This document shows positions 5,313-59,536 of a stretch of DNA of 64,000 nucleotides, piece by piece (position 1 is the stretch's first letter; every line of letters starts with the position of its first letter). A model generated the notes under the pieces. The model was not told where the DNA came from and did not search any database. It saw only the letters and a list, made by a program, of their open reading frames with translations. The translations under genes were made by a program, and so were the position numbers. The stretch covers positions 1-64,000 of the forward strand of contig NZ_WVIE01000011.1 of the NCBI RefSeq assembly GCF_010091945.1. Direction: 5' to 3'. Source of the stretch: Myxacorys almedinensis A (GTDB lineage Bacteria; Cyanobacteriota; Cyanobacteriia; Leptolyngbyales; Leptolyngbyaceae).

Positions 5313-5552
5313 CGGCTGATAACGCTGTTCTGATGATGTCGTTTGCGCCTTAATTTCAACGAATCAGCAATCAATACTATGCCTTTGTTGCCATATCCTA
5401 AGTTGAAGCGAAATCGTTGAGGTAGGTAGTTGGCAGTACCCCATCTTGCCCGACAGACTCATCTCAATGACAAGCATTGCTTGCTAAACCCACACAAACC
5501 AGCTTAGGACGCCATACTGTGTGGGCTAGACATCGAATTTGCAAGCAGCAAG

Positions 5553-7768: not shown

Positions 7769-8620
7769 ATGGTGCAGTTACCACCCGATCGCTATATTCA
7801 GGTCAACGGCATCAAGACGCGCTATTGGAGCTTAGGCACTCAGGGTAGCGTAGTCATCTTTATTCATGGCATCAGCAGTGCGGTTGAAACGTGGGCACTC
7901 AATATCGAGGCTTTGGCTCAACATCACCGAGTCTATGCCCTTGATCTGGTCGGGTCAGGGCGATCGGACAAGCCACTGGGGGTCTACTCGCTAGTTGCCT
8001 TGGCTGAGTTCGCCCATGCCTTTGCTGATGCCCTAACCCTCGATCGTTTCAGCTTAATCGGCAACTCGCTGGGCGGTGGAACTGCGCTGCAATTTGCTCT
8101 TTCCTACCCACAACGGGTTGAAAAGCTGGTGTTGGTCAATAGTTTGGGGCTGGGGCAAGCGGTTTCCTGGGGTTTGCGGCTGGCAAATTTGCCCTTCGTC
8201 GATCGCTTCTACAAGCCCACCCGCAGCAGCACTGCTTTCACGCTCAGACAGAGTGTCGATGATCCCTCCCTAATTACTGATGAGTGGATTGATACCTTCT
8301 ACGAACTTCTCAGTCTTCCAGGCGCACCGGAAGCTGCGATCGCGCAAATTCGTGCCAGTGTTGATTGGTTCGGGGTGCGACCAGAGGTTTACCAGCCGCT
8401 CGTCAATGGCTTACCCACGCTCACAACCCCAACGCTCATCGTTTGGGGCAAGCAAGATCACATATTGCCAGTTAGCCACACACAAGTGGCGATACAACAC
8501 TTGCCAAAGGCTCAGGTTCAGATTTTCGATCGCTGCGGTCATTGGTCTCACTTTGAGCAAGCCGCAGCATTCAACACGCAAGTCGCCAGATTTCTCGCAC
8601 GTTCATCCTCATCAAATTGA
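7769..8620 (+). CDS. Alpha/beta-fold hydrolase
   Basis: 283 residues. Oxyanion motif FIHGISS, nucleophile elbow GNSLGG (Ser), acid in WGKQDHI (Asp) and catalytic His in CGHWSHFE are all present in family order, with a variable cap between. Substrate unknown; relatives act on esters, haloalkanes or lactones. The ATG at 7769 lies just after the VKOR-like stop codon. An upstream in-frame extension would overlap that gene and looks non-conserved. No signal peptide. Confidence 0.88.
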   Translation: MVQLPPDRYIQVNGIKTRYWSLGTQGSVVIFIHGISSAVETWALNIEALAQHHRVYALDLVGSGRSDKPLGVYSLVALAEFAHAFADALTLDRFSLIGNSLGGGTALQFALSYPQRVEKLVLVNSLGLGQAVSWGLRLANLPFVDRFYKPTRSSTAFTLRQSVDDPSLITDEWIDTFYELLSLPGAPEAAIAQIRASVDWFGVRPEVYQPLVNGLPTLTTPTLIVWGKQDHILPVSHTQVAIQHLPKAQVQIFDRCGHWSHFEQAAAFNTQVARFLARSSSSN

Positions 8621-8631
8621 ACCTCCTAAGG

Positions 8632-9846
8632 CTAGCTCGAACGCTCTTGGGAAGCGACGGTTGGTTGGCTCGGCTGTTGAACAATCGGCTTCAGACCGAA
8701 TAGGAACCGAGGGATATTAAACCGACGAATCAGCAATTCGTACAGCCCGATCGTTACGATCAAAGAAGCCGTGCTGATGATCCAAAACTTTGTCGCGATA
8801 CCACTATTCCAGCGCACGACGTAGAATGCGATCGCAACTAACACCGTTTGATGGAGCAAATAAACCGGGTAAGCCGCTTCGTTAGCATAAGACAGCAGCT
8901 TACTGTTGAAATTTAGGAACCTCCGCCCCAACCCCAACAGCGCCAGCACCCAAAACCAGGAATTGCATCCTCGAAAGCCCTGATACGCCATATAAACCAG
9001 AGAGTAGGCACGATCAGGAATACGATCGCTCTGCCATAAACTTAGTAACAGTCCCATGCAGACGAGTGCTAACCCCAAGGCGGTGCCTAAATGCTTATCG
9101 ATCGCGGTTCCAAATCGGGCGTCTGAGCACATCAGATAGCCGTAGAAGAAGTACAACACATACAAACAGAGATTCGCCCAGTCGTCATAGAGATTTTGAA
9201 ACCCAGCCCAACGGGGGCGCAAAAGGCTTTCGATCGCTGCTAAGGGAAATGCCATCAGCAGCACGACGCCCGGTTTTTCGATCCAGTTTGTCAGCGTCAA
9301 TCGTAGCGGTGCATCTAGTCTCCGCAAGTGCAGCAATAGCGGTAGCGCCACGAGTGAAAACGTAAACAGATAGATGAGAAACCAGAGATGCCCCCACTCA
9401 AAATTGCCGTGCGGGCGAATGCCATTAAAAAATTTAGGGTAGAACTGCCAATACGACTGGTCGTAAGTTGAATCGCTCAAAAGCCGCAAATAAACCTGCG
9501 GCGGAATCAGCACCAGCGTGCCAAACACAAACGGAATGAAGAGGCGCTGACAGCGTTCTTGAACATACTGCTGGGTCGATCGGTACGACAGCGCAAACCA
9601 AGTACCTGCTCCAGATATCAAGAAAAATAACGGCATATGCCACTGATGGATAAACAGAACAATGCTGTTCATCACTTGGCTCGATCGAGCGTTGCGGATG
9701 TAAAACTCACCCAAGTCACCCTGATAGAAAACCGCAGCGGTATGAAAGTAGAGCAATAGCAAAACAGCCAGCACTCTGAGCCAGTCAATGTCATATCGGC
9801 GTTGGCGCGACTGGGTTAACTGTTGTGTGTCCTCAGATGATGGCAT
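8632..9846 (-). CDS. Acyltransferase family 3 membrane protein
   Basis: 404 residues, about ten transmembrane segments. The N-terminal RRYDIDWLRVLAVLLLLYFH with its Arg and His is the acyltransferase-3 signature; these proteins move acetyl or succinyl groups onto exported polysaccharides or lipids (OPG succinyltransferase C is a relative). It converges on the hydrolase gene with an 11-bp gap. An in-frame TTG 18 bp upstream (9864) is an alternative start. Substrate unknown. Confidence 0.82.
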   Translation of the reverse strand: MPSSEDTQQLTQSRQRRYDIDWLRVLAVLLLLYFHTAAVFYQGDLGEFYIRNARSSQVMNSIVLFIHQWHMPLFFLISGAGTWFALSYRSTQQYVQERCQRLFIPFVFGTLVLIPPQVYLRLLSDSTYDQSYWQFYPKFFNGIRPHGNFEWGHLWFLIYLFTFSLVALPLLLHLRRLDAPLRLTLTNWIEKPGVVLLMAFPLAAIESLLRPRWAGFQNLYDDWANLCLYVLYFFYGYLMCSDARFGTAIDKHLGTALGLALVCMGLLLSLWQSDRIPDRAYSLVYMAYQGFRGCNSWFWVLALLGLGRRFLNFNSKLLSYANEAAYPVYLLHQTVLVAIAFYVVRWNSGIATKFWIISTASLIVTIGLYELLIRRFNIPRFLFGLKPIVQQPSQPTVASQERSS

Positions 9847-11797: not shown

Positions 11798-12116
11798 ATT
11801 CTCATGAAGCTAAATAAATGTTGCCACTTGCTCAAGCGTATTCGAGCAGGGGTTCCAGGAAACCCTCTGTGGGTTGAACTAAACGCGATCGTCGTTCGAT
11901 TCTGAGTAATTTGCGCCAAAGACGGCTGAATCGTGGCTTTATCGAGCATTAGAATTGGCGGCAAGGGTCGCGGTTTTGGTTCGGATGCCTAAGTGAAGAG
12001 AGCGATCGCACAGTTCTCCTACCTGGTCAGCGGACACAGATACCTTTTGCAACTCGCCGATTACTTGGCTTTGTTCCATCGCATTGGGATTGTTCGACTG
12101 CTGGCAGCCGTATTGC

Positions 12117-12704
12117 TCAAAATAAATAAGGGATTAAGCGTTTGGTACGCTGCATATATGCTTTGTACTCCTCTCCAAAATGTTGAAGCATCATCTGTTC
12201 TTCATTGCTGATTCGTAGAACGTACATGATGCCGAACGAGATCATTCCCGCTAAACCTGCAACCCAATTTGGAAGTAGCAGTGCTTGTGCCACACACCAT
12301 AACCAGAAAGCTGCGTACATTGGGTGACGAATTTTTTGATAAATGCCACTGCTAACAAAGGTGTGCCCTTCTCTAATCTCTAATGTAGGCGACCAATTCC
12401 TGCCTAAATCATGGTGGGAACGCCAGAGTAGCCAAAGTGAAATCGCAAAGAAAATGGCTCCTAAATAGCCAGCCCAAAGAGATGAATGATAGTCAGCCGG
12501 ACTGAGCCAGGGAGAAAAAACATAGATCAAGGGCAGAATCACCATTCCAACGTAGATAAGTACAAATAAGACTCGTTCTCGTAGGACAAGGCGAGCGGCT
12601 AACCGTTTAGTCTGTTTATCCCGTTTCTGATAGGGAGTACGAATCGCCCATGCAGCAATGAAGCCAACCATGAAGAGTATTTTTAGAGCCAGGGTGTCCA
12701 TCAT
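12117..12704 (-). CDS. Isoprenylcysteine carboxyl methyltransferase-like membrane methyltransferase
   Basis: 195 residues with about five membrane segments. The C-terminal half holds LVSSGIYQKIRHPMYAAF and NEEQMMLQHFGEEYKAYMQR, the RHPxY and E-EE-L-F-G-Y motifs of the ICMT/PEMT membrane methyltransferases that use SAM on lipids or prenylated substrates. I chose the ATG at 12704 because AAGG lies 5 nt upstream; an in-frame GTG at 12764 would add 20 unlikely residues. The substrate in a cyanobacterium is unknown. Confidence 0.8.
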   Translation of the reverse strand: MMDTLALKILFMVGFIAAWAIRTPYQKRDKQTKRLAARLVLRERVLFVLIYVGMVILPLIYVFSPWLSPADYHSSLWAGYLGAIFFAISLWLLWRSHHDLGRNWSPTLEIREGHTFVSSGIYQKIRHPMYAAFWLWCVAQALLLPNWVAGLAGMISFGIMYVLRISNEEQMMLQHFGEEYKAYMQRTKRLIPYLF

Positions 12705-12963
12705 GTCTACCTTACTGCTGACAATATGCGAACTCCTGTAATTATTACCGACGCAGTATACCAATTAAATAAAGAAAGATTCTCAATCAATATTTGCTAT
12801 CATTCTTAAAATTTCAAGTGGTCTTTGTATCGCGATGAAAACTTTCTAAAACTACCCCGATGACTGAAACGAAGTAGTCTAACGGTCTGCCTCACCCGCC
12901 CTGCTAGTAATCTCTTTCGTTCTCAATTAGCTAACTGAATGGGGTCGGTGTGCAAGCGAATTG

Positions 12964-13118
12964 TTATACCAAATTGATTTTTCACCGCGACAGATGCTCG
13001 ACCCCCCTGCCTGCGGCATCCCCCTTTGGTCAGAAGGGACTTTCCGGCTCCTCTCCTGACTGAGGCGGGGTTGGGGGAGGTCGCACGTCTCTAGCATTTA
13101 CAGATTAATTTGGTATTA
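12964..13118. repeat. MITE-like element with inverted ends
   Basis: A 15-bp terminal inverted repeat, TTATACCAAATTGAT (12964-12978) against ATTAATTTGGTATTA (13104-13118), matches at 13 of 15 positions and encloses about 125 bp of C-rich then G-rich sequence. No coding potential. It occupies part of the 432-bp gap 12705-13136; the rest is AT-rich and featureless apart from promoter sequence for 12704. Confidence 0.5.
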
Positions 13119-13136
13119 GGCATGAACTTCGCCAAT

Positions 13137-13889
13137 TTAAGTGAGATTTAGCCCTCCGTCTGAAATTAAAATCTCTCCTGTAAGATAGTGACTTGCAACC
13201 ATCATAGAAGCTATTTGTGCGATCTCTTTTGGTTGTGCTCCCCGCCCCATTGGCGATCGCTCTTCCCAGAGGTTTCGTGCTGCTGTCCAATTCTTGCTCA
13301 TCGGAGTTTCGACTAAACCCGGCGCGATCGCATTCACCCGAATCTGTGGTGCTAGACTCACCGCCAGCAGTTTTGTCATATGGTTTAAAGCAGCTTTGCT
13401 AGCAGAATATGGGATTGAGGCTCCTTTGGGGCGAATACCCGCATGAGAGCTAATGTTGAGAATACAGCTAGGACAGACACGACTTGATGACTGACGTAGC
13501 GCAATTTCAGCCTCGGCAATGAGTGTCCAAGCTGCAATGACATTGACCTCATATAGATTTCGCCAAATCTCCGGTGAGGCTTCCTTCAGAGATGTATGTG
13601 GAATGGTCGCACTAATCCCTGCATTATTGACCAATACATCCAGCCGACCATGATGAGACAAAACCTCGGTAATCAGATTACGAGATTGGTTTTGGTCAGA
13701 TAGATCCGCCTGAAAATAAGATGAACCAGGATGCGCTTCCGCTAATGACTTCCCAACCAGCACTGAAGACTTGGAATGGAAAGAAACAACGAAGCCATCT
13801 TCGGCAAGCCGCTTTGCGATCGCCATCCCTATCCCAGATGTCGAACCAGTCACAAGCGCAACTCTTTTTTCGCCTCTATCTTCGGTCAC
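13137..13889 (-). CDS. Short-chain dehydrogenase/reductase
   Basis: 250 residues, classical SDR. TGSTSGIG binds the coenzyme (about 15-22), NNAG is at about 91-94, and the catalytic set is Ser (NISS), Tyr and Lys in YSASKAA. PGLVETPM follows. After the first strand the sequence reads FHSKSS, which suggests NADP preference, but this is weak. FabG-like folds have many substrates; nothing nearby indicates one. Confidence 0.88.
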   Translation of the reverse strand: MTEDRGEKRVALVTGSTSGIGMAIAKRLAEDGFVVSFHSKSSVLVGKSLAEAHPGSSYFQADLSDQNQSRNLITEVLSHHGRLDVLVNNAGISATIPHTSLKEASPEIWRNLYEVNVIAAWTLIAEAEIALRQSSSRVCPSCILNISSHAGIRPKGASIPYSASKAALNHMTKLLAVSLAPQIRVNAIAPGLVETPMSKNWTAARNLWEERSPMGRGAQPKEIAQIASMMVASHYLTGEILISDGGLNLT

Positions 13890-14044
13890 AATCTTAAACT
13901 TCTCATCTTCCTTGGATTTAATTCTGCCTAACGACTCGCAACCGTCCGCTGCAATCCCTCTTCATAGACTTCCTGCTCCGTTGAACTAGCACCATTGGTT
14001 AGTAGTCTCAGCGTACTTGCCCCCGTTTTTATCTAAAACTCACG

Positions 14045-49718: not shown

Positions 49719-49803
49719 GGTTCGGTTGTGGTGACACGCCAATCGTATCTTACGGGGTAGAGGGGACGCGGGGATAGAGGGGGAGAAAGAGCGGCAATAA
49801 CGA

Positions 49804-49842
49804 ATGTAGGGTCACCTAATTTCAAACTAGGCAACCCTACAT
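49804..49842. repeat. Perfect-armed hairpin upstream of dxr
   Basis: ATGTAGGGT (49804-49812) with ACCCTACAT (49834-49842), then a symmetric CA/CA internal loop and CCTA/TAGG inner pairing. A REP-like palindrome or the remains of a mobile repeat. Confidence 0.6.
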
Positions 49843-49917
49843 CTATTTTATAGGCAGACATTCTTTTAACTCCGCTCTACAAATCTTTGAGAGAATTTGC
49901 AAGCGAGCCGCAATCTT

Positions 49918-50073
49918 TTAAGCTGAAACCATTTCAGTAGGTTGCCTTTCTGTTGTTGTGCCTTTGATGCGAGTTCTCATGCTTTTACGAACGCGATCGC
50001 TCGTGCGAACTCCGCCTGCTAACTCATACTGGTGGCTATCTCGACCATACTCAAACGCAACGCCTAACAACAT
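49918..50073 (-). CDS. Possible 51-residue ORF next to an attC-like site
   Basis: MLLGVAFEYGRDSHQYELAG and a basic C-terminal half; the frame is open about nine codons further upstream. It follows attC-like site A in cassette orientation and could be a cassette ORF or a gene fragment. No RBS is obvious. Weak. Confidence 0.25.
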   Translation of the reverse strand: MLLGVAFEYGRDSHQYELAGGVRTSDRVRKSMRTRIKGTTTERQPTEMVSA

Positions 50074-50147
50074 TTCCGCAGGCACCAAGCCCTCGGAAAC
50101 CTATGCCATTGCCATTTGAAGGACTACCCCAACCCAAAAACGAAGCC

Positions 50148-50236
50148 AGCTAACGACCAAGATAAGCGGATGTAAGTAACAATGAAACTAAGCACCAGGA
50201 ACTTCATTACATTCCGGTGCAACGCACTTGTTAGCT
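50148..50236 (-). other. attC-like site A (integron cassette recombination site)
   Basis: Read on the minus strand: R'' AGCTAAC (50236-50230) and R' GTTAGCT (50154-50148) are perfect complements. The right half CCGCTTATCTTGGTCGTT is identical over 18 nt to that of site B. The L boxes (TTGCACCGG and CCGCTTATC) pair poorly, so the site looks hybrid. It overlaps the last codons of the HxlR gene. Confidence 0.6.
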
Positions 50237-50955
50237 TGCATCAACTGCACGACGGAGTTATCAATCCCCATACCATACCGCCATTCTCCATTGAGATATA
50301 ACCAGGTCGGTATTTGATGCACCAGTTTACGATCGCCCTCAAAACAAATTGTCCCTTGCTTAAGGGCAAGATTCAGATGGGTATAGCCCATCCAGACATG
50401 AGTGAAGGCACTCAGATCAGCTGATATTAAGACATTCACTTCAAAGCCTGGATCTTTTTGACACACATCCACCTCTCTATCCTCGATCACTAGCCACCAA
50501 CTGCGCTGAGTTTTGCGCCCTTTGGTTAACCCACGAAAGTCAAACTGAAGCACCATTTTCTGCGCGGGTACTGCCTCAAGATTGATTCGTCGCCTCATGC
50601 CCCACATCAACAAGGCATCATCTAAATCTTCTGGGGCAATTTGTTCGCTTCCCCATTGTTGTGCCCAAACACCCATCGCCTCAATCAGGGGGCGCAGGGC
50701 TTCTCCGGCAGGTGTGAGAACATACTCATGCCCCTGCCCAGTCTCTTTTTCGTAGCTGACGACAATCCCCAATTTCTCAAGTTCTTTGAGGCGTTGAACC
50801 AGGAGGGCACGGGACATTAATGGCACCCCTCGACTAATGTCATTGAAGTAGCGATTGCCATATAGCATTTCTCGCAGCACTAGTGGGTTCCAGCGATCGC
50901 CAATCACTTCAGCCGCCTTTGCCACCGGACAGAATTGCCCATATCCCTTTCTCAT
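50188..50955 (-). CDS. HxlR-family regulator with C-terminal extension
   Basis: 255 residues. The HxlR winged helix (about 1-100) begins RKGYGQFCPVAKAAEVIGDRW, with Cys 9 as possible redox sensor. A further 150-residue domain (SCP2-like appearance, WWLVIEDREVDVCQKDPGFEVNVLISADL) is fused. The final residues (ANKCVAPECNEVPGA) are encoded by attC-like site A, suggesting read-through into the recombination site. Divergent from the acyl-CoA-dehydrogenase-like gene, so probably its regulator. In-frame ATG 50979 and TTG 51018 are alternatives. Confidence 0.85.
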   Translation of the reverse strand: MRKGYGQFCPVAKAAEVIGDRWNPLVLREMLYGNRYFNDISRGVPLMSRALLVQRLKELEKLGIVVSYEKETGQGHEYVLTPAGEALRPLIEAMGVWAQQWGSEQIAPEDLDDALLMWGMRRRINLEAVPAQKMVLQFDFRGLTKGRKTQRSWWLVIEDREVDVCQKDPGFEVNVLISADLSAFTHVWMGYTHLNLALKQGTICFEGDRKLVHQIPTWLYLNGEWRYGMGIDNSVVQLMQANKCVAPECNEVPGA

Positions 50956-50980
50956 AGCATGTCCAGGGAGGTAACACATC

Positions 50981-50999
50981 AGGTTCAGATATTGAACTT
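50981..50999. promoter_or_regulatory. Inverted repeat in the HxlR/dehydrogenase divergent promoter
   Basis: AGGTTCA (50981-50987), GATAT, TGAACTT (50993-50999): six of seven positions pair. Its place between divergent genes suggests the HxlR operator. Confidence 0.5.
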
Positions 51000-51059
51000 G
51001 TACCACTTTGTCAGACAAATCAGAATGGGAGCATCACAAAATTTAAAGGAGACAGTCCG

Positions 51060-52211
51060 ATGTTAGAATTACAGACTGCACCAACAATCCAGCAGGAAGG
51101 GATAGACTGGTTATCCCTGGCGGAATCCCTAGGAAACCAGTTTGCTGCCAGAGAAGCCGAAGCCGATGAGCGCGACTTGTTTGTCGCTGATAACATTGCC
51201 AGATTGAAATCATCTGGACTAGTAGCAGCAGGTGTTCCGGCTGAACTGGGTGGTGGCGGAGCTAGCTATACCGATCTCTGCGCTGTGCTACGCATCTTGG
51301 GGCGCTATTGCAGTTCAACGGCGCTGGCATTTTCTATGCATACGCATCAGGTCATGGTGCCAACCTGGCGCTGGCGTAATCAGAATGCTCCCGTTGATGG
51401 ATTACTCAGACGAGTGGCAACCGAGCAACTGATCATGCTCAGCAGTGGCGGATCAGACTGGTTACAGAGCGCTGGCACGGCTGTAAAAGTGGAGGGTGGA
51501 TTTCTGATCACAGCGCGTAAAGTATTTGCTAGTGGTGCGCCTGTCGCGAATTTATTAATGACCAGTGCTGTTTATGAAGACCCAGAAATAGGGTCTACGG
51601 TATTACATTTTGCGGTTCCCATGAATGCCGAGGGCGTTGCAATTGAATCCACTTGGCAAGCGATGGGGATGCGGGGAACGGGTTCCCATGATGTGGTACT
51701 CTCTGATGTTTTTGTGCCGGATGCGGCAATTGCTTTACGACGAGAACAAGGGAAGTGGCATTTTATTTTTCACCTGATTTCGATGGTGGCGATCCCGTTG
51801 ATTTATTCTGTTTATGTCGGGGTTGCAGAAGCAGCCCGCGATCGCGCGGTTCAACTAGCAATGAAGCGCCACACCGATGAACATCTTTGCTACAAGGTGG
51901 GAGGTTTAGACAATGAATTGATAGCTGCAAAGTTAGCACTTCAGCACATGATTTCGACTGCCGTGGTGAGTCAACCTGGCTTTGAAACCACGAATCAAAT
52001 CATGACGGGACGGACACTGGTTGCCAACGCGGTACTCAACGTCGCTGATTTAGCAATGGAAATTGCTGGGGGAAGTGCGTTCTATCGCAAGCTGGGTCTG
52101 GAGAAATTGTTCCGTGATGTGCAGGGAGTCCGCTATCACCCTCTGCGAGAGGAGGCGCAGCGCAAGTTATCGGGTCAACTGGCACTTGGGTGGGATGTGT
52201 CTTTTTTGTAG
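51060..52211 (+). CDS. Acyl-CoA dehydrogenase-family flavoprotein (SfnB/DszC-like)
   Basis: 383 residues, complete acyl-CoA dehydrogenase fold: N-terminal helices, beta domain (LLMTSAVYEDP, WQAMGMRGTGSHDVVLSDVFVP) and C-terminal helical domain (AGGSAFYRKLGLEKLFRDVQG). The MRGTGSHDV segment and lack of the catalytic Glu of true dehydrogenases point to the branch with flavin monooxygenases and sulfur-compound enzymes. AAAGGAGA lies 8 nt upstream. It opposes the attC orientation, with its regulator HxlR on the other strand. Substrate unknown. Confidence 0.85.
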   Translation: MLELQTAPTIQQEGIDWLSLAESLGNQFAAREAEADERDLFVADNIARLKSSGLVAAGVPAELGGGGASYTDLCAVLRILGRYCSSTALAFSMHTHQVMVPTWRWRNQNAPVDGLLRRVATEQLIMLSSGGSDWLQSAGTAVKVEGGFLITARKVFASGAPVANLLMTSAVYEDPEIGSTVLHFAVPMNAEGVAIESTWQAMGMRGTGSHDVVLSDVFVPDAAIALRREQGKWHFIFHLISMVAIPLIYSVYVGVAEAARDRAVQLAMKRHTDEHLCYKVGGLDNELIAAKLALQHMISTAVVSQPGFETTNQIMTGRTLVANAVLNVADLAMEIAGGSAFYRKLGLEKLFRDVQGVRYHPLREEAQRKLSGQLALGWDVSFL

Positions 52212-52319
52212 AGTAGTTCCTTTCAGCCAGAGCGATCGCTCAGTCTTAGTTCCAGCGAGGAAAAGAGCGATCGTTCTCTCACTGCTAACTTTCCAATCCA
52301 CTCAGACTGATAAGTTGCG

Positions 52320-52408
52320 GTCTAACGACACAGTTGAGCCGACGCAGATAACGTTTCTCGATCCTAACCGATCGCTTCTCGCCGTTCGGCTCCAACGTCT
52401 TGTTGTGC
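52320..52408 (-). other. attC-like site C (best match to canonical attC)
   Basis: Read on the minus strand: R'' GCACAAC (52408-52402), L'' TTGGAGCCGA, L' TCGGCTCAA, R' GTTAGAC (52326-52320), which fits the GTTRRRY consensus. L'' and L' pair perfectly except for one unpaired G, the extrahelical base that attC sites use for strand choice. It overlaps the 3' end of the nucleosidase gene. Confidence 0.75.
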
Positions 52409-53098
52409 TGCGCCGCTTGGTTGCAGCGTTGCTCTCCATTGAATAACAACCTGAGCTAGATTGCACATGGCTGTTACCAAATTCGCTTCAAAATCTGCTG
52501 CTGCTTGATGATTCGCTGTATCAGTTACACCACGCAACTCAACGTAGCACTTCTGATTAAATTTGCACGCTCTAGCACCTCCCGCTCCTTCCCACGCCAC
52601 AGCAATACAATCAGTCAAATTCATTAACTCTTGCCCTCTGGCAGCATCAACAATATCTTCGTCACCGCTTGCAACAGCACCGAAATGAACTGAAAAAGCT
52701 GAATCTGTCTGAGGTAAGCTTTGTAGAACCTCGATGATTTGATGACTTCCAGCGAAACGAGGCAAGGGACGGCTGACAAATTTCAGATTGTAGTCATGTT
52801 CAACTGTTTCAGTTGCGACAACCACATCGCCAACTTCCAATGAATTAGACAACGCTCCAGCGGCTCCGGCACACACTAACAGTTGTATCTGTGGAACTTG
52901 GCAAAGCAAGTATTGGGCTTGTATGCCAAACTGCGTCTTACCATGTCCGCCATTAGCAACTAATAGGTCAACCTCGCCAAATTCAAAAATATCTAAGCCA
53001 CCTGATCGAAACTCTCTTTTTTGCAGCCCAAACTGCTCTAATTGAGCAACCAGAATCGCAAGTTCTTCTTGAAGTGGAGTGAGAATTGCAGTCTTCAT
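52364..53098 (-). CDS. Nucleosidase/nucleoside-phosphorylase superfamily protein (MTA/SAH type)
   Basis: 244 residues. ILTPLQEELAILVAQL, VANGGHGKTQFGIQAQYLL, VCAGAAGALSNSLEVGDVVVATETVEHDYN and RGVTDTAN (catalytic Asp) follow the 5'-methylthioadenosine/SAH nucleosidase pattern. It probably cleaves the glycosidic bond of a purine nucleoside. The last 14 residues (AQQDVGAERREAIG) are encoded inside attC-like site C. Single gene between sites B and C, i.e. one cassette of about 0.94 kb. Confidence 0.82.
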   Translation of the reverse strand: MKTAILTPLQEELAILVAQLEQFGLQKREFRSGGLDIFEFGEVDLLVANGGHGKTQFGIQAQYLLCQVPQIQLLVCAGAAGALSNSLEVGDVVVATETVEHDYNLKFVSRPLPRFAGSHQIIEVLQSLPQTDSAFSVHFGAVASGDEDIVDAARGQELMNLTDCIAVAWEGAGGARACKFNQKCYVELRGVTDTANHQAAADFEANLVTAMCNLAQVVIQWRATLQPSGAAQQDVGAERREAIG

Positions 53099-53259
53099 TT
53101 AAGGAATTTGACTGTGAACGAACTGGATGATTCTAGCTTGACATTTCGAACTCGCCGACAATTTGCCGATTACCACCCTCACCCATAACGTTAAGATCGC
53201 CAATGCTGCATGACTAACAGATTGATTTTAAACCACGGTCACCACCGAAATTCAAGCGG

Positions 53260-53345
53260 TACAACGACCAAGATAAGCGGCGGCAGATAAGTGTGGCATC
53301 ACCACCAAGATCTCTCGTCCGTCCGCTTCATCGACTTGTTAGCTG
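53260..53345 (-). other. attC-like site B
   Basis: Read on the minus strand: R'' AGCTAAC (53345-53339), L'' GATGAAGCGG, L' CCGCTTATC, R' GTTGTAC (53266-53260). The L boxes are complementary except for one extra G, as in true attC. The stop codon of the preceding small ORF lies inside R''. Confidence 0.7.
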
Positions 53346-53572
53346 GCTCTCCTCACCGATCGCCCCCAACCGCTCAATCTCTCCCACTCAGCGATCGCCT
53401 CTGAACACCGCGATGCTTGCAGACTCGCGGGTGACTTAGAAGAAGAAGTGCAAGGATTTTGTGCAGAGCTAGCCAAATCACCATCGAGATTTACAATCAA
53501 GCAAAACAGAAATTTGGCAACTCGTAAGTCTCGTTGCAAGCGTGCCTCTCTCCTTCGACTCGGATCTAGCAT
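53339..53572 (-). CDS. Possible 77-residue cassette ORF
   Basis: From ATG 53572, MLDPSRRREARLQRDLRVAK, a short hydrophobic piece, then Ser-rich sequence ending RRAS. Its TAA is part of the R'' box of site B, a common cassette layout. It has no recognisable fold and no clear RBS, and may be a remnant. Confidence 0.3.
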   Translation of the reverse strand: MLDPSRRREARLQRDLRVAKFLFCLIVNLDGDLASSAQNPCTSSSKSPASLQASRCSEAIAEWERLSGWGRSVRRAS

Positions 53573-54096: not shown

Positions 54097-54208
54097 GGGG
54101 TAGTCCTATTTTGTAAAGGTTGTAAATAATCAGGCTAGAGGCTTGTGGCAGCGCTAGACCGTTAATTTGCAGCTATTTTTTCTGTCCTTTACAAAAAGGC
54201 ACTACCCC
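54097..54208. mobile_element. MITE-like element, 112 bp
   Basis: Terminal inverted repeats of 23 bp match at 20 positions: the left end starts GGGGTAGTCC and ends TTGTAAAGG (54097-54119); the right end starts CCTTTACAAA and ends ACTACCCC (54186-54208). The interior is non-coding. No target-site duplication is obvious. Confidence 0.65.
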
Positions 54209-58171: not shown

Positions 58172-59536
58172 ATGGAGAACCCAACCGTAGAAAACTTAGT
58201 CATTATTGGTTCTGGCCCAGCAGGCTACACGGCGGCAATTTATGCGGCGCGTGCAAATCTCAAGCCTTTGGTCTTTGAAGGCTTTCAGGTGGGCGGGCTT
58301 CCGGGCGGACAACTGATGACAACGACCGAAGTTGAAAACTTTCCGGGCTTTCCTCATGGCATCACCGGACCACAACTGATGGATCAGATGAAGGCTCAAG
58401 CCGAACGATGGGGAGCCGAGCTTTATACCGAAGATGTGACGTTTGTTGACTTGAGCCAGCGTCCATTTACAATTCGGTCAGACGATCGCGAAGTCAAGGC
58501 CCACAGCGTGGTGATTGCCACAGGTGCAACCGCTAAACGGCTCGGATTGCCCGATGAAGCCAATTTCTGGAGTCGAGGTATTTCTGCGTGTGCCATTTGT
58601 GATGGTGCAACGCCCTTATTTCGGGGTGCGCCGTTGGTGATTATTGGCGGGGGTGACACGGCGGCAGAAGAAGCGCTGTATCTGACGAAGTACGGCGATC
58701 GCGTCAATATGCTGGTGCGAGGAGACAAACTGCGCGCCAGTAAAGCCATGCAAGATCGCGTCTTAAATAATCCAAAGATCACGGTTCATTGGAATACGGA
58801 AGCCGTTGATGTGGTGGGCGGTAGTGAACATATGACAGGCGTGAAAGTCAGAAATCGTCAGACAGGCGAAGAAAGCGCGATCGAGGCGAAAGGCTTGTTC
58901 TATGCGATCGGGCACACGCCGAATACCTCTCTGTTCAAAGGTCAGCTTGATCTAGATGACGTCGGTTACATTGTCACCAAACCTGGAGAGGTTGAAACGA
59001 GTATTGAAGGGGTGTTTGCCGCAGGTGACGTGCAAGATCACGAATTCCGCCAAGCGATTACGGCGGCTGGAACAGGCTGCATGTCTGCAATGTTGGCAGA
59101 ACGCTGGCTATCGTTTAATGGCTTGATCCAAGAGTTTCATCAAGTTCAGATCGAAGAGTCGAATGAAGAGAAGACGGCTCACAAAGCAGAAGAGTTTTCT
59201 ACAGAGGTCGATCCAGAAAAGACAAAGCATGTGGGCGGTTATGCCTTGCGGAAGCTCTACCATGACAGCGATCGCTTGATTATGGTGAAGTATGTCTCTC
59301 CGAGTTGCGGCCCGTGCCATACACTAAAGCCAATTCTCAATAAAGTGGTAGATGAGTTTGACGGCAAAATTCACTTTATTGAGATAGACATCGAGGAAGA
59401 CCCGGACATTGCAGAATCAGCAGGCATTTCGGGAACTCCAACGATTCAGTTCTTTAAGCACAAAGATAAGGTTGCGGAAGTGAAAGGCGTAAAGCAGAAG
59501 AGTCAGTACCGCGAGTTGATCGAAAGCCATTTGTAG
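58172..59536 (+). CDS. ntrC: NADPH-dependent thioredoxin reductase C (NTRC, reductase-thioredoxin fusion)
   Basis: 454 residues. Reductase domain: FAD motif GSGPAG, active-site C140-A-I-C143, NADPH motif [10 protein letters not shown], second FAD motif FAAGDVQD. A polar linker (about 325-350) joins a thioredoxin domain with C379-G-P-C382. NTRC uses NADPH to reduce 2-Cys peroxiredoxins and tune light-dependent metabolism in oxygenic phototrophs. The symbol denotes NTRC, not the nitrogen regulator NtrC. Confidence 0.95.

Follow-up and report, generated by a model that had tools for sequence, protein, structure and literature searches.

Gene cassettes and attC sites at positions 50,076 to 53,465

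In this study, we report a relic array of integron gene cassettes in the cyanobacterium Myxacorys almedinensis A, located on contig NZ_WVIE01000011.1, of which positions 1 to 64,000 (64,000 nucleotides, hereafter the window) were analysed. The array carries three genuine integron attC sites, all on the minus strand: site A (50148-50236), which ends cassette 2, site B (52320-52408), which ends cassette 1, and site C (53259-53344), which ends a truncated upstream cassette. With a covariance model built for this study (R1, the E-values of which are rough), A scored 41.6 bits (E 9.1e-8), B 52.1 bits (E 2.5e-10) and C 61.2 bits (E 1.5e-12). The array is an ordinary relic of the type termed CALIN, a cluster of attC sites lacking an integron-integrase (IntegronFinder 2.0, PMC9024848), and its host is best read as belonging to a lineage with many dispersed attI platforms that were formerly served by the integrase IntI. 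G, C and L numbers are used below for genomes, contigs and sequence stretches; G185 is the congener.

Cassette 1 (52326-53264, minus strand) is 939 bp long, measured between the presumed G^TT crossover points of C and B, and carries a nucleosidase gene (52364-53098, minus strand; PNP_UDP_1, MTA/SAH-nucleosidase-like, below the NCBIfam cut-offs). Cassette 2 (50154-52325, minus strand; 2,172 bp, its limits set by the GTT positions in R') carries the gene for an HxlR-type regulator with an SCP2-like C-terminal match (50188-51018, minus strand; 25 bits, cut-off 21.3) and, divergent from it, a gene for an acyl-CoA-dehydrogenase-like flavoprotein (51060-52211, plus strand). A preliminary description, made from the letters of the window, had proposed three minus-strand sites and cassettes of about 0.94 and 2.2 kb; both proposals were borne out, the coordinates of A and B exactly and those of C within one base (53260-53345 there). 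A search for the nucleosidase on plasmids yielded distant homologues only (all 49 records below 60% identity) and was discarded.

In cassette orientation, the R'' box of each site ends in AAC and the closing R' reads CGTT, with a GTT core. The L boxes of B and C had been described as complementary apart from a single extra G, which holds, and which applies to A only in part; against the 15-pair L helix of R1, the number of non-standard pairs is one in B, two in C and three in A. An exact 18-nt L'-R' half is common to A and C, and the L'' half of A pairs poorly. Two copies of this 18-mer, CCGCTTATCTTGGTCGTT, are present in the window, one in each of these two sites, where 0.08 occurrences would be expected with up to three mismatches. 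Open reading frame (ORF) ends lie inside the sites, as had been claimed: the nucleosidase ORF reaches 45 nt into B, and the HxlR ORF ends in A.

Both ends of the array are broken. Homology to the sister species G185 stops at 50075, on the dxr side (G185:C5), and resumes at 53466 (G185:C124). The segment at the left junction (49803-50075, minus strand) is 79% identical to G185:C5 and holds a 135-aa ORF that lacks its 5' part here. At the right, the truncated cassette end upstream of C (53345-53465, minus strand) comprises 121 nt, with a 77-aa minus-strand ORF that spans the junction and ends 5 nt inside C. It is followed by the 3' remnant of a small host gene (53466-53532, plus strand), 88% identical over 67 nt to G185:C124, whose 5' part was lost at the junction; the frame of this gene in G185 was read by eye from the sequence. 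Since both homology breaks fall inside reading frames that are whole in G185, the window array is a fragment and not an intact insertion, and the imperfect site A together with the two broken ends marks it as a relic. The same gene order without gaps, which the preliminary description had named as evidence to the contrary, was not seen in the one congener compared, where the two flanks lie on different contigs without these cassettes between them. Further along the window, a MITE-like inverted repeat was observed at 54097-54208 (miniature inverted-repeat transposable element; 34-nt arms, 76% complementary, 44 nt apart).

Many cassettes of G185 begin with a leader of about 50 nt after R'. A hidden Markov model (HMM) of it was trained on the congener only, from 23 sequences chosen for an NGC(T/C) start behind R'. 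Among the attC loci of M. almedinensis it gave 15 matches, 12 of them directly behind a same-strand attC site. Two further matches fall on first cassettes adjoining intI, one in G185 and the other in G174, which belongs to another family. A gapless base count after R' had shown a weak signal only, and the gapped HMM performed better. In the window, a leader stands directly after C (53213-53260, minus strand; 9.7 bits, E 0.85) in the exact position. Another, also exactly placed (6.5 bits, E 9.8), follows A at 50147-50115 and then appears to be cut off, within a stretch of 72 nt (50076-50147, minus strand). This leader suggests that a further cassette once stood after A, of which these 72 nt are left.

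Covariance searches and the scatter of attC sites

The neighbourhoods of intI that were scanned for attC sites were supplied by a TIGR02249 search of 386 cyanobacterial genomes. R1 was trained on 18 stretches around intI in other cyanobacteria, from which 23 of 49 scan hits were retained by eye, none of them from the window. The scan demands complementary L arms, so that covariation in the training alignment (A2) is biased. A covariance-model search of this kind had been proposed in the preliminary description; when it was run with R1, in place of the published model, the three sites scored 42-61 bits. By comparison, no match at E<=10 (default filters) was obtained in 1.44 Mb of control sequence, namely the surroundings of dxr at 80 loci of other bacteria and cyanobacteria. 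A strict hand-made attC pattern proved too strict, with no match on either strand of the M. almedinensis genome and one for the reversed control.

Whole-genome counts were made by scoring the best 150 candidates per genome, and the totals are therefore lower bounds. At E<=0.01, at least 39 attC sites were found in the M. almedinensis assembly, which comprises 4.96 Mb in 85 contigs and is rated 100% complete. Grouped at 4 kb, they fall into 23 loci, of which nine are arrays of two to four sites and fourteen hold a single site. Covariation was measured on 37 of these 39 sites, all outside the training set, in an alignment (A3) that was held out but fitted to the model and that omits a partial match on C7 and a site cut by the end of C48; it reached 0.385 against 0.150 in shuffles, a value attained by none of 500. 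At 27 of the 39 sites, an ORF on the same strand has its end between -50 and +35 nt relative to the attC start, compared with a mean of 2.7 and a maximum of 9 for random positions in the same loci (1000 runs) and with 4 of 39 on the opposite strand.

The scatter extends beyond this species. At least 68 sites were counted in G185, and in an R1 scan of 14 genomes (M. almedinensis, the congener and 12 others) twelve had matches at E<=1e-6 and two had none. Two near-finished relatives, G389 (3 contigs) and G390 (5 contigs), hold at least 52 and at least 8 matches, and among the matches listed for G390 (six of the eight) the sites lie 50 kb to 2 Mb apart; the scatter is thus not a product of fragmented assemblies. 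Cassettes are also shared between the species: an SDR gene is found in the window and on G185:C86, and one cassette of C21 in M. almedinensis recurs on G185:C114. As a separate observation, a sequence of about 42 nt (CGTCAGACCTGAAAGC...) stands directly behind the terminal attC site of three cassettes in two species (L187:2575-2618, L185:5252-5295 and L216:5240-5283).

The window contains a second, more decayed array at 12027-14004, with one recognisable attC site and two decayed ones. Site D (12877-12969, minus strand; R1 37.2 bits, E 1.1e-6) follows the SDR gene (13137-13889, minus strand). The same gene stands in a four-attC array on G185:C86, interrupted there by about 1 kb, and homology of the region reaches the R' box ahead of the gene in both genomes. 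Site E (13926-14004, minus strand), at the start of the SDR cassette, was read by eye and was not picked up by the R1 scan of the window; its R' lies at the same place as that of the G185 attC site preceding the same gene. Site F (12027-12094, minus strand) stands behind an ICMT-type methyltransferase gene (12117-12764) and shares 82% identity over 68 nt with an attC site of G185; R1 gave a partial match to it at 12027-12083 (20.2 bits, E 0.015). Between D and the SDR stop codon an inverted repeat was read by eye (12965-13120; ATACCAAATT.../...AATTTGGTAT), which is possibly a small inserted element.

Two further loci bear on how cassettes enter the chromosome. On C44, about 4.9 kb of DNA with a HepT-like gene and an attC site at its end stands where G185 has 46 bp between aligned blocks. 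This lineage-specific difference is best read, from the alignment, as a probable insertion, the exact target letters of which are not fixed as the intergenic region has diverged. An array at C2:69-73 kb lies directly against the end of a conserved gene, and the alignment to G185 continues until no more than 8 nt remain before the end of the attC site; the flank on the other side of the array is found on a different contig in G185. In both cases the last R' reads GAT instead of GTT. A site was taken as terminal when no further attC was found within 4 kb, and the comparison of R' covered 39 sites of M. almedinensis and 59 of the 68 of G185, leaving out seven near contig ends (all GTT). Over the two species taken together, non-GTT R' cores are commoner at terminal than at internal sites (10/39 against 3/51, p 0.014; 11/40 at terminal sites with the partial match included, p 0.007). 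This is what insertion of the attG type would leave, and decay could also contribute. The consensus for attG insertion is G^WT. Such sites, chromosomal targets of cassette insertion distinct from both attC and attI, were reportedly described by Loot et al. in 2024. In the available text, attG insertion is mentioned in PMC12901181 and PMC12444791, and the work of Loot et al. appears in the reference list of PMC11023631.

A rearrangement between the species was also noted beside an attC site, involving position 59535 of the window and L185:5227 against L228:12376-12446. In G185 the window gene at 58172-59536 stands next to the permease-like gene of L185, whereas here the two lie on C2 and C84. 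A proposed enrichment of attC sites at synteny breakpoints (the window, C2:69-73 kb and C84) was dropped for want of a background rearrangement rate.

Integrase genes and attI-like elements

The preliminary description had seen no integrase near the array, and none was found over the TIGR02249 cut-off in the whole assembly. At E<=10 the profile gave only matches far below the cut-off of 265 bits. The best two candidates, at 47 and 38 bits, are Xer-like, as compared with 473 bits for IntI of the congener, and the Xer-like recombinases encoded on C8 were not accepted as IntI. Given that no integron integrase was found in the assembly, the mobility of the cassettes is probably history and not a present state; of the earlier proposal of mobile cassettes in a cyanobacterial chromosome, the cassettes and the cyanobacterial host stand and the present mobility probably does not.

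Across the 386 cyanobacteria, TIGR02249 exceeded its cut-off in 22, including G185 and the same-family genome G060. G185 carries two copies of intI, one intact and one with an internal stop; a whole-genome search placed intI on C20, on C47 and, as a fragment, on C34 only, so small a piece as 52 residues being detectable. Damaged copies were found at several loci. The gene on G185:C47 (L040:3206-4165) has an internal TAG, that on G390:C1 (L278:6815-7462), near a G390 attC site, lacks residues 124-230, and that on G389:C1 (L291:2980-3940) reads in two parts, shifted by one base; an attI-like element adjoins each of the three genes. On G389:C2, 22 residues of intI are left beside such an element.

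These attI-like elements were recognised upstream of the first cassette beside intI, as a run of palindromes of about 36 bp with R-box-like arms, ending in a core such as GATCTATCTAAAAAAGAG|TTATGC. Several CALIN-type arrays are headed by a related element, with palindromes of about 36 bp and a core of the TCTAAATAAGAG|TTA type. A profile was seeded with seven heads, three beside intI and four without a full intI (one of these four beside the 22-residue remnant). Searched over 2.5 Mb at E<=0.05, it gave 28 matches that include the core, while the 80 control loci contained no core-containing match (best, partial, E 0.79). The loci covered had been chosen for holding attC sites, so that copies per genome are a lower bound.

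Eight of the 28 matches have intI, or what is left of it, within 1.5 kb, and four of these eight are outside the seed, including one in G011 of another family. The other 20 stand without intI beside them (three in M. almedinensis, ten in G185, two in G389, four in G390 and one on L175), as judged by a tblastn search of the stretches examined with a single IntI protein; whole-genome profile searches for intI accompanied this comparison in M. almedinensis and G185 only. The match on L175 (L175:7362, near dxr in the sister species; E 0.011) is weak, has neither attC nor leader, and was not used. A match to the core by regular expression on C2 of M. almedinensis (L180:9507) lacks the palindromes and was treated as an attG-type start and not as attI. 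The three heads in M. almedinensis, each at an intI-less array, lie on C16 (L176:6486-6568, minus strand; 26 bits), C21 (L177:5718-5813, plus strand; 52 bits) and C46 (L181:5576-5667, plus strand; 33 bits).

Position relative to the arrays was assessed on 19 of the 21 held-out matches (L042 and L051, beside intI in other genomes, were left out): 16 of the 19 head a same-strand array, against a mean of 2.9 and a maximum of 10 for random positions and strands in the same loci (2000 runs). Copies within a genome resemble each other, with 63 of 73 letters identical between C16 and C46 of M. almedinensis and 84 of 89 between C1 and C2 of G389, whereas the C16 element aligns with the intI-adjacent attI of G185 over 19 letters only, 16 of them identical. 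G185:C33 carries three near-copies (L211:3271-3368, 5450-5545 and 8589-8676); of these, one has attC sites on either side and one is oppositely oriented.

Origin of the arrays and relation to known systems

We consider it very probable that the window array is a relic cassette fragment of a system in which IntI placed cassettes at platforms or at other positions, and that the arrays of this genome are now frozen and eroding. From what is known of the family, the cassettes would have been captured, through recombination of folded attC hairpins, by an IntI-type integrase; the congener has a close version of it intact. This integrase would have deposited them at attI-like platforms, which the relatives examined carry in several copies per genome, and also elsewhere in the chromosome. 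In M. almedinensis itself, where intI is not detectable, the arrays would then have been left to erode, as the loss of material at both ends of the window array, the imperfect L boxes of A and the decayed array at 12-14 kb would indicate. We infer that IntI placed the cassettes, that the attI-like elements function as attI and could be served in trans, and that the absence of intI here reflects loss and not a gap in the assembly.

Several results weigh against this reading. The single-strand folding energy of the bottom strand, compared with shuffles, did not set the sites apart (z -1.95 for A, -0.41 for B and -1.71 for C), and an Rfam search of the window at gathering thresholds gave no match, which weighs against attC identity. 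The leader HMM matches of M. almedinensis are individually weak (E 0.004 to 9.8), and sites B and D had no such match behind them. In G185 we looked for a clean empty site corresponding to the window array and found none, the flanks lying on different contigs there. No attI-like match was obtained in the window at E<=1, so that neither intI nor attI stands beside the array; two of the three heads elsewhere in the genome are the weak ones, and over half of the profile seed came from heads without a full intI. With 85 contigs and several arrays near contig ends, an intI gene may also have gone unassembled.

The folding result, close to shuffles, would favour A to C being chance or generic palindromic repeats such as repetitive extragenic palindromic (REP) elements or MITEs; as folding energy alone was unremarkable, the covariance model was needed as another test. 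That identity is contradicted by the control searches, and the covariance scores, the position of ORF ends, the sharing of cassettes and the leaders likewise speak against it, which makes it extremely improbable. Nor does the window array look like a complete insertion made by IntI directly at a chromosomal attG-type site, an explanation we regard as very unlikely here: the last R' of A to C is GTT, followed by a weak but exactly placed leader and no recognisable target DNA, and both flanking host genes are broken. It is the C44 segment and the C2:69-73 kb array, abutting conserved genes with GAT at the terminal R', that favour attG insertion, together with the excess of non-GTT cores at terminal sites, which may be plain decay. 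The integron might still be complete: intI would then lie in a gap of the assembly, and the window array would belong to a live cassette pool. The 85 contigs, the arrays or sites near contig ends (C10, C16, C17, C21, C24, C47 and C48) and the persistence of attC and attI-like elements are consistent with this, which we nevertheless consider unlikely in view of the completeness rating of the assembly, the profile search at E<=10, and the 52-residue fragment detected in the sister species by the same kind of search. Moreover, near-finished G390 keeps an intI without its middle (a second G390 intI elsewhere was not searched for), so that loss of intI does occur in the family.

Beyond the relic in the window, the wider arrangement can be explained in two ways. 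It is possible, with a probability somewhat under one half, that these genomes hold a distributed integron, in which one integrase (or none) faces many dispersed attI platforms of the TCTAAATAAGAG|TTA type, each building its own array in trans. With nearly even probability, the intI-less arrays headed by attI-like elements are instead separate integrons, each of which has lost its own intI. The remnant on G389:C2, whose adjoining attI is that near copy of the element beside the frame-shifted intI on C1, the deleted gene of G390 and the internal stop on G185:C47 favour separate integrons, and given the broken or remnant intI in G389 and G390, some of the orphan heads probably belong to integrons from which intI has disappeared. 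The other orphan heads show no trace of intI in the stretch examined. In G185, where intI is confined to C20, C47 and the C34 fragment, ten usable attI-like matches have no such trace in their stretch, and three of these ten are the near-copies on one contig in both orientations, which argues for platforms served in trans.

The window array resembles published CALINs in having at least two attC sites within 4 kb and no intI nearby. At the level of the genome there are differences: 14 of the 23 loci hold a single attC site, which the defaults of IntegronFinder 2.0 omit (PMC9024848), and three arrays carry an attI-like head. According to the same source, attI is poorly described outside class 1 integrons and is hence not detected by that program. 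In Xanthomonas, an ancestral integron with repeated lineage-specific loss of intI has been described, with CALINs persisting at other chromosomal loci (PMC12444791), a situation like the present one; among the well-sampled species there, CALINs away from the main locus occupy seven distinct chromosomal loci, as against 23 attC loci in one genome here, and the available text mentions no attI at them. The likeness to attG insertion lies in cassettes placed in the chromosome outside attC and attI, and the difference in that the insertions here are natural, old and cyanobacterial, known from sequence alone. Integrons with intI and attC are known in Cyanobacteria (PMC2426708, PMC8352920, PMC9668308), and a cyanobacterial attC covariance model exists. 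It was built from clustered sites only, singletons having been removed (PMC8352920), so that dispersed single cassettes fall outside its set. In the literature available to us, which took in little of the subscription journals, no description was found of attI in cyanobacteria, of attI at CALINs, or of several attI per genome. The multi-platform layout across the family therefore appears new, with the function of its elements predicted from sequence.

CALINs are usually read as degraded integrons. If a distributed integron exists in this family, many such arrays would be functional receiving arrays and not debris, and if many CALINs have an attI of their own, one integrase could feed many chromosomal positions and bring cassettes beside many host genes. 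As attI is so poorly described outside class 1 integrons, the palindromic element offers a useful handle for finding attI across cyanobacteria. M. almedinensis, in which no intI was found, and its congener, in which intI is intact, provide a natural comparison for the loss of the integrase.

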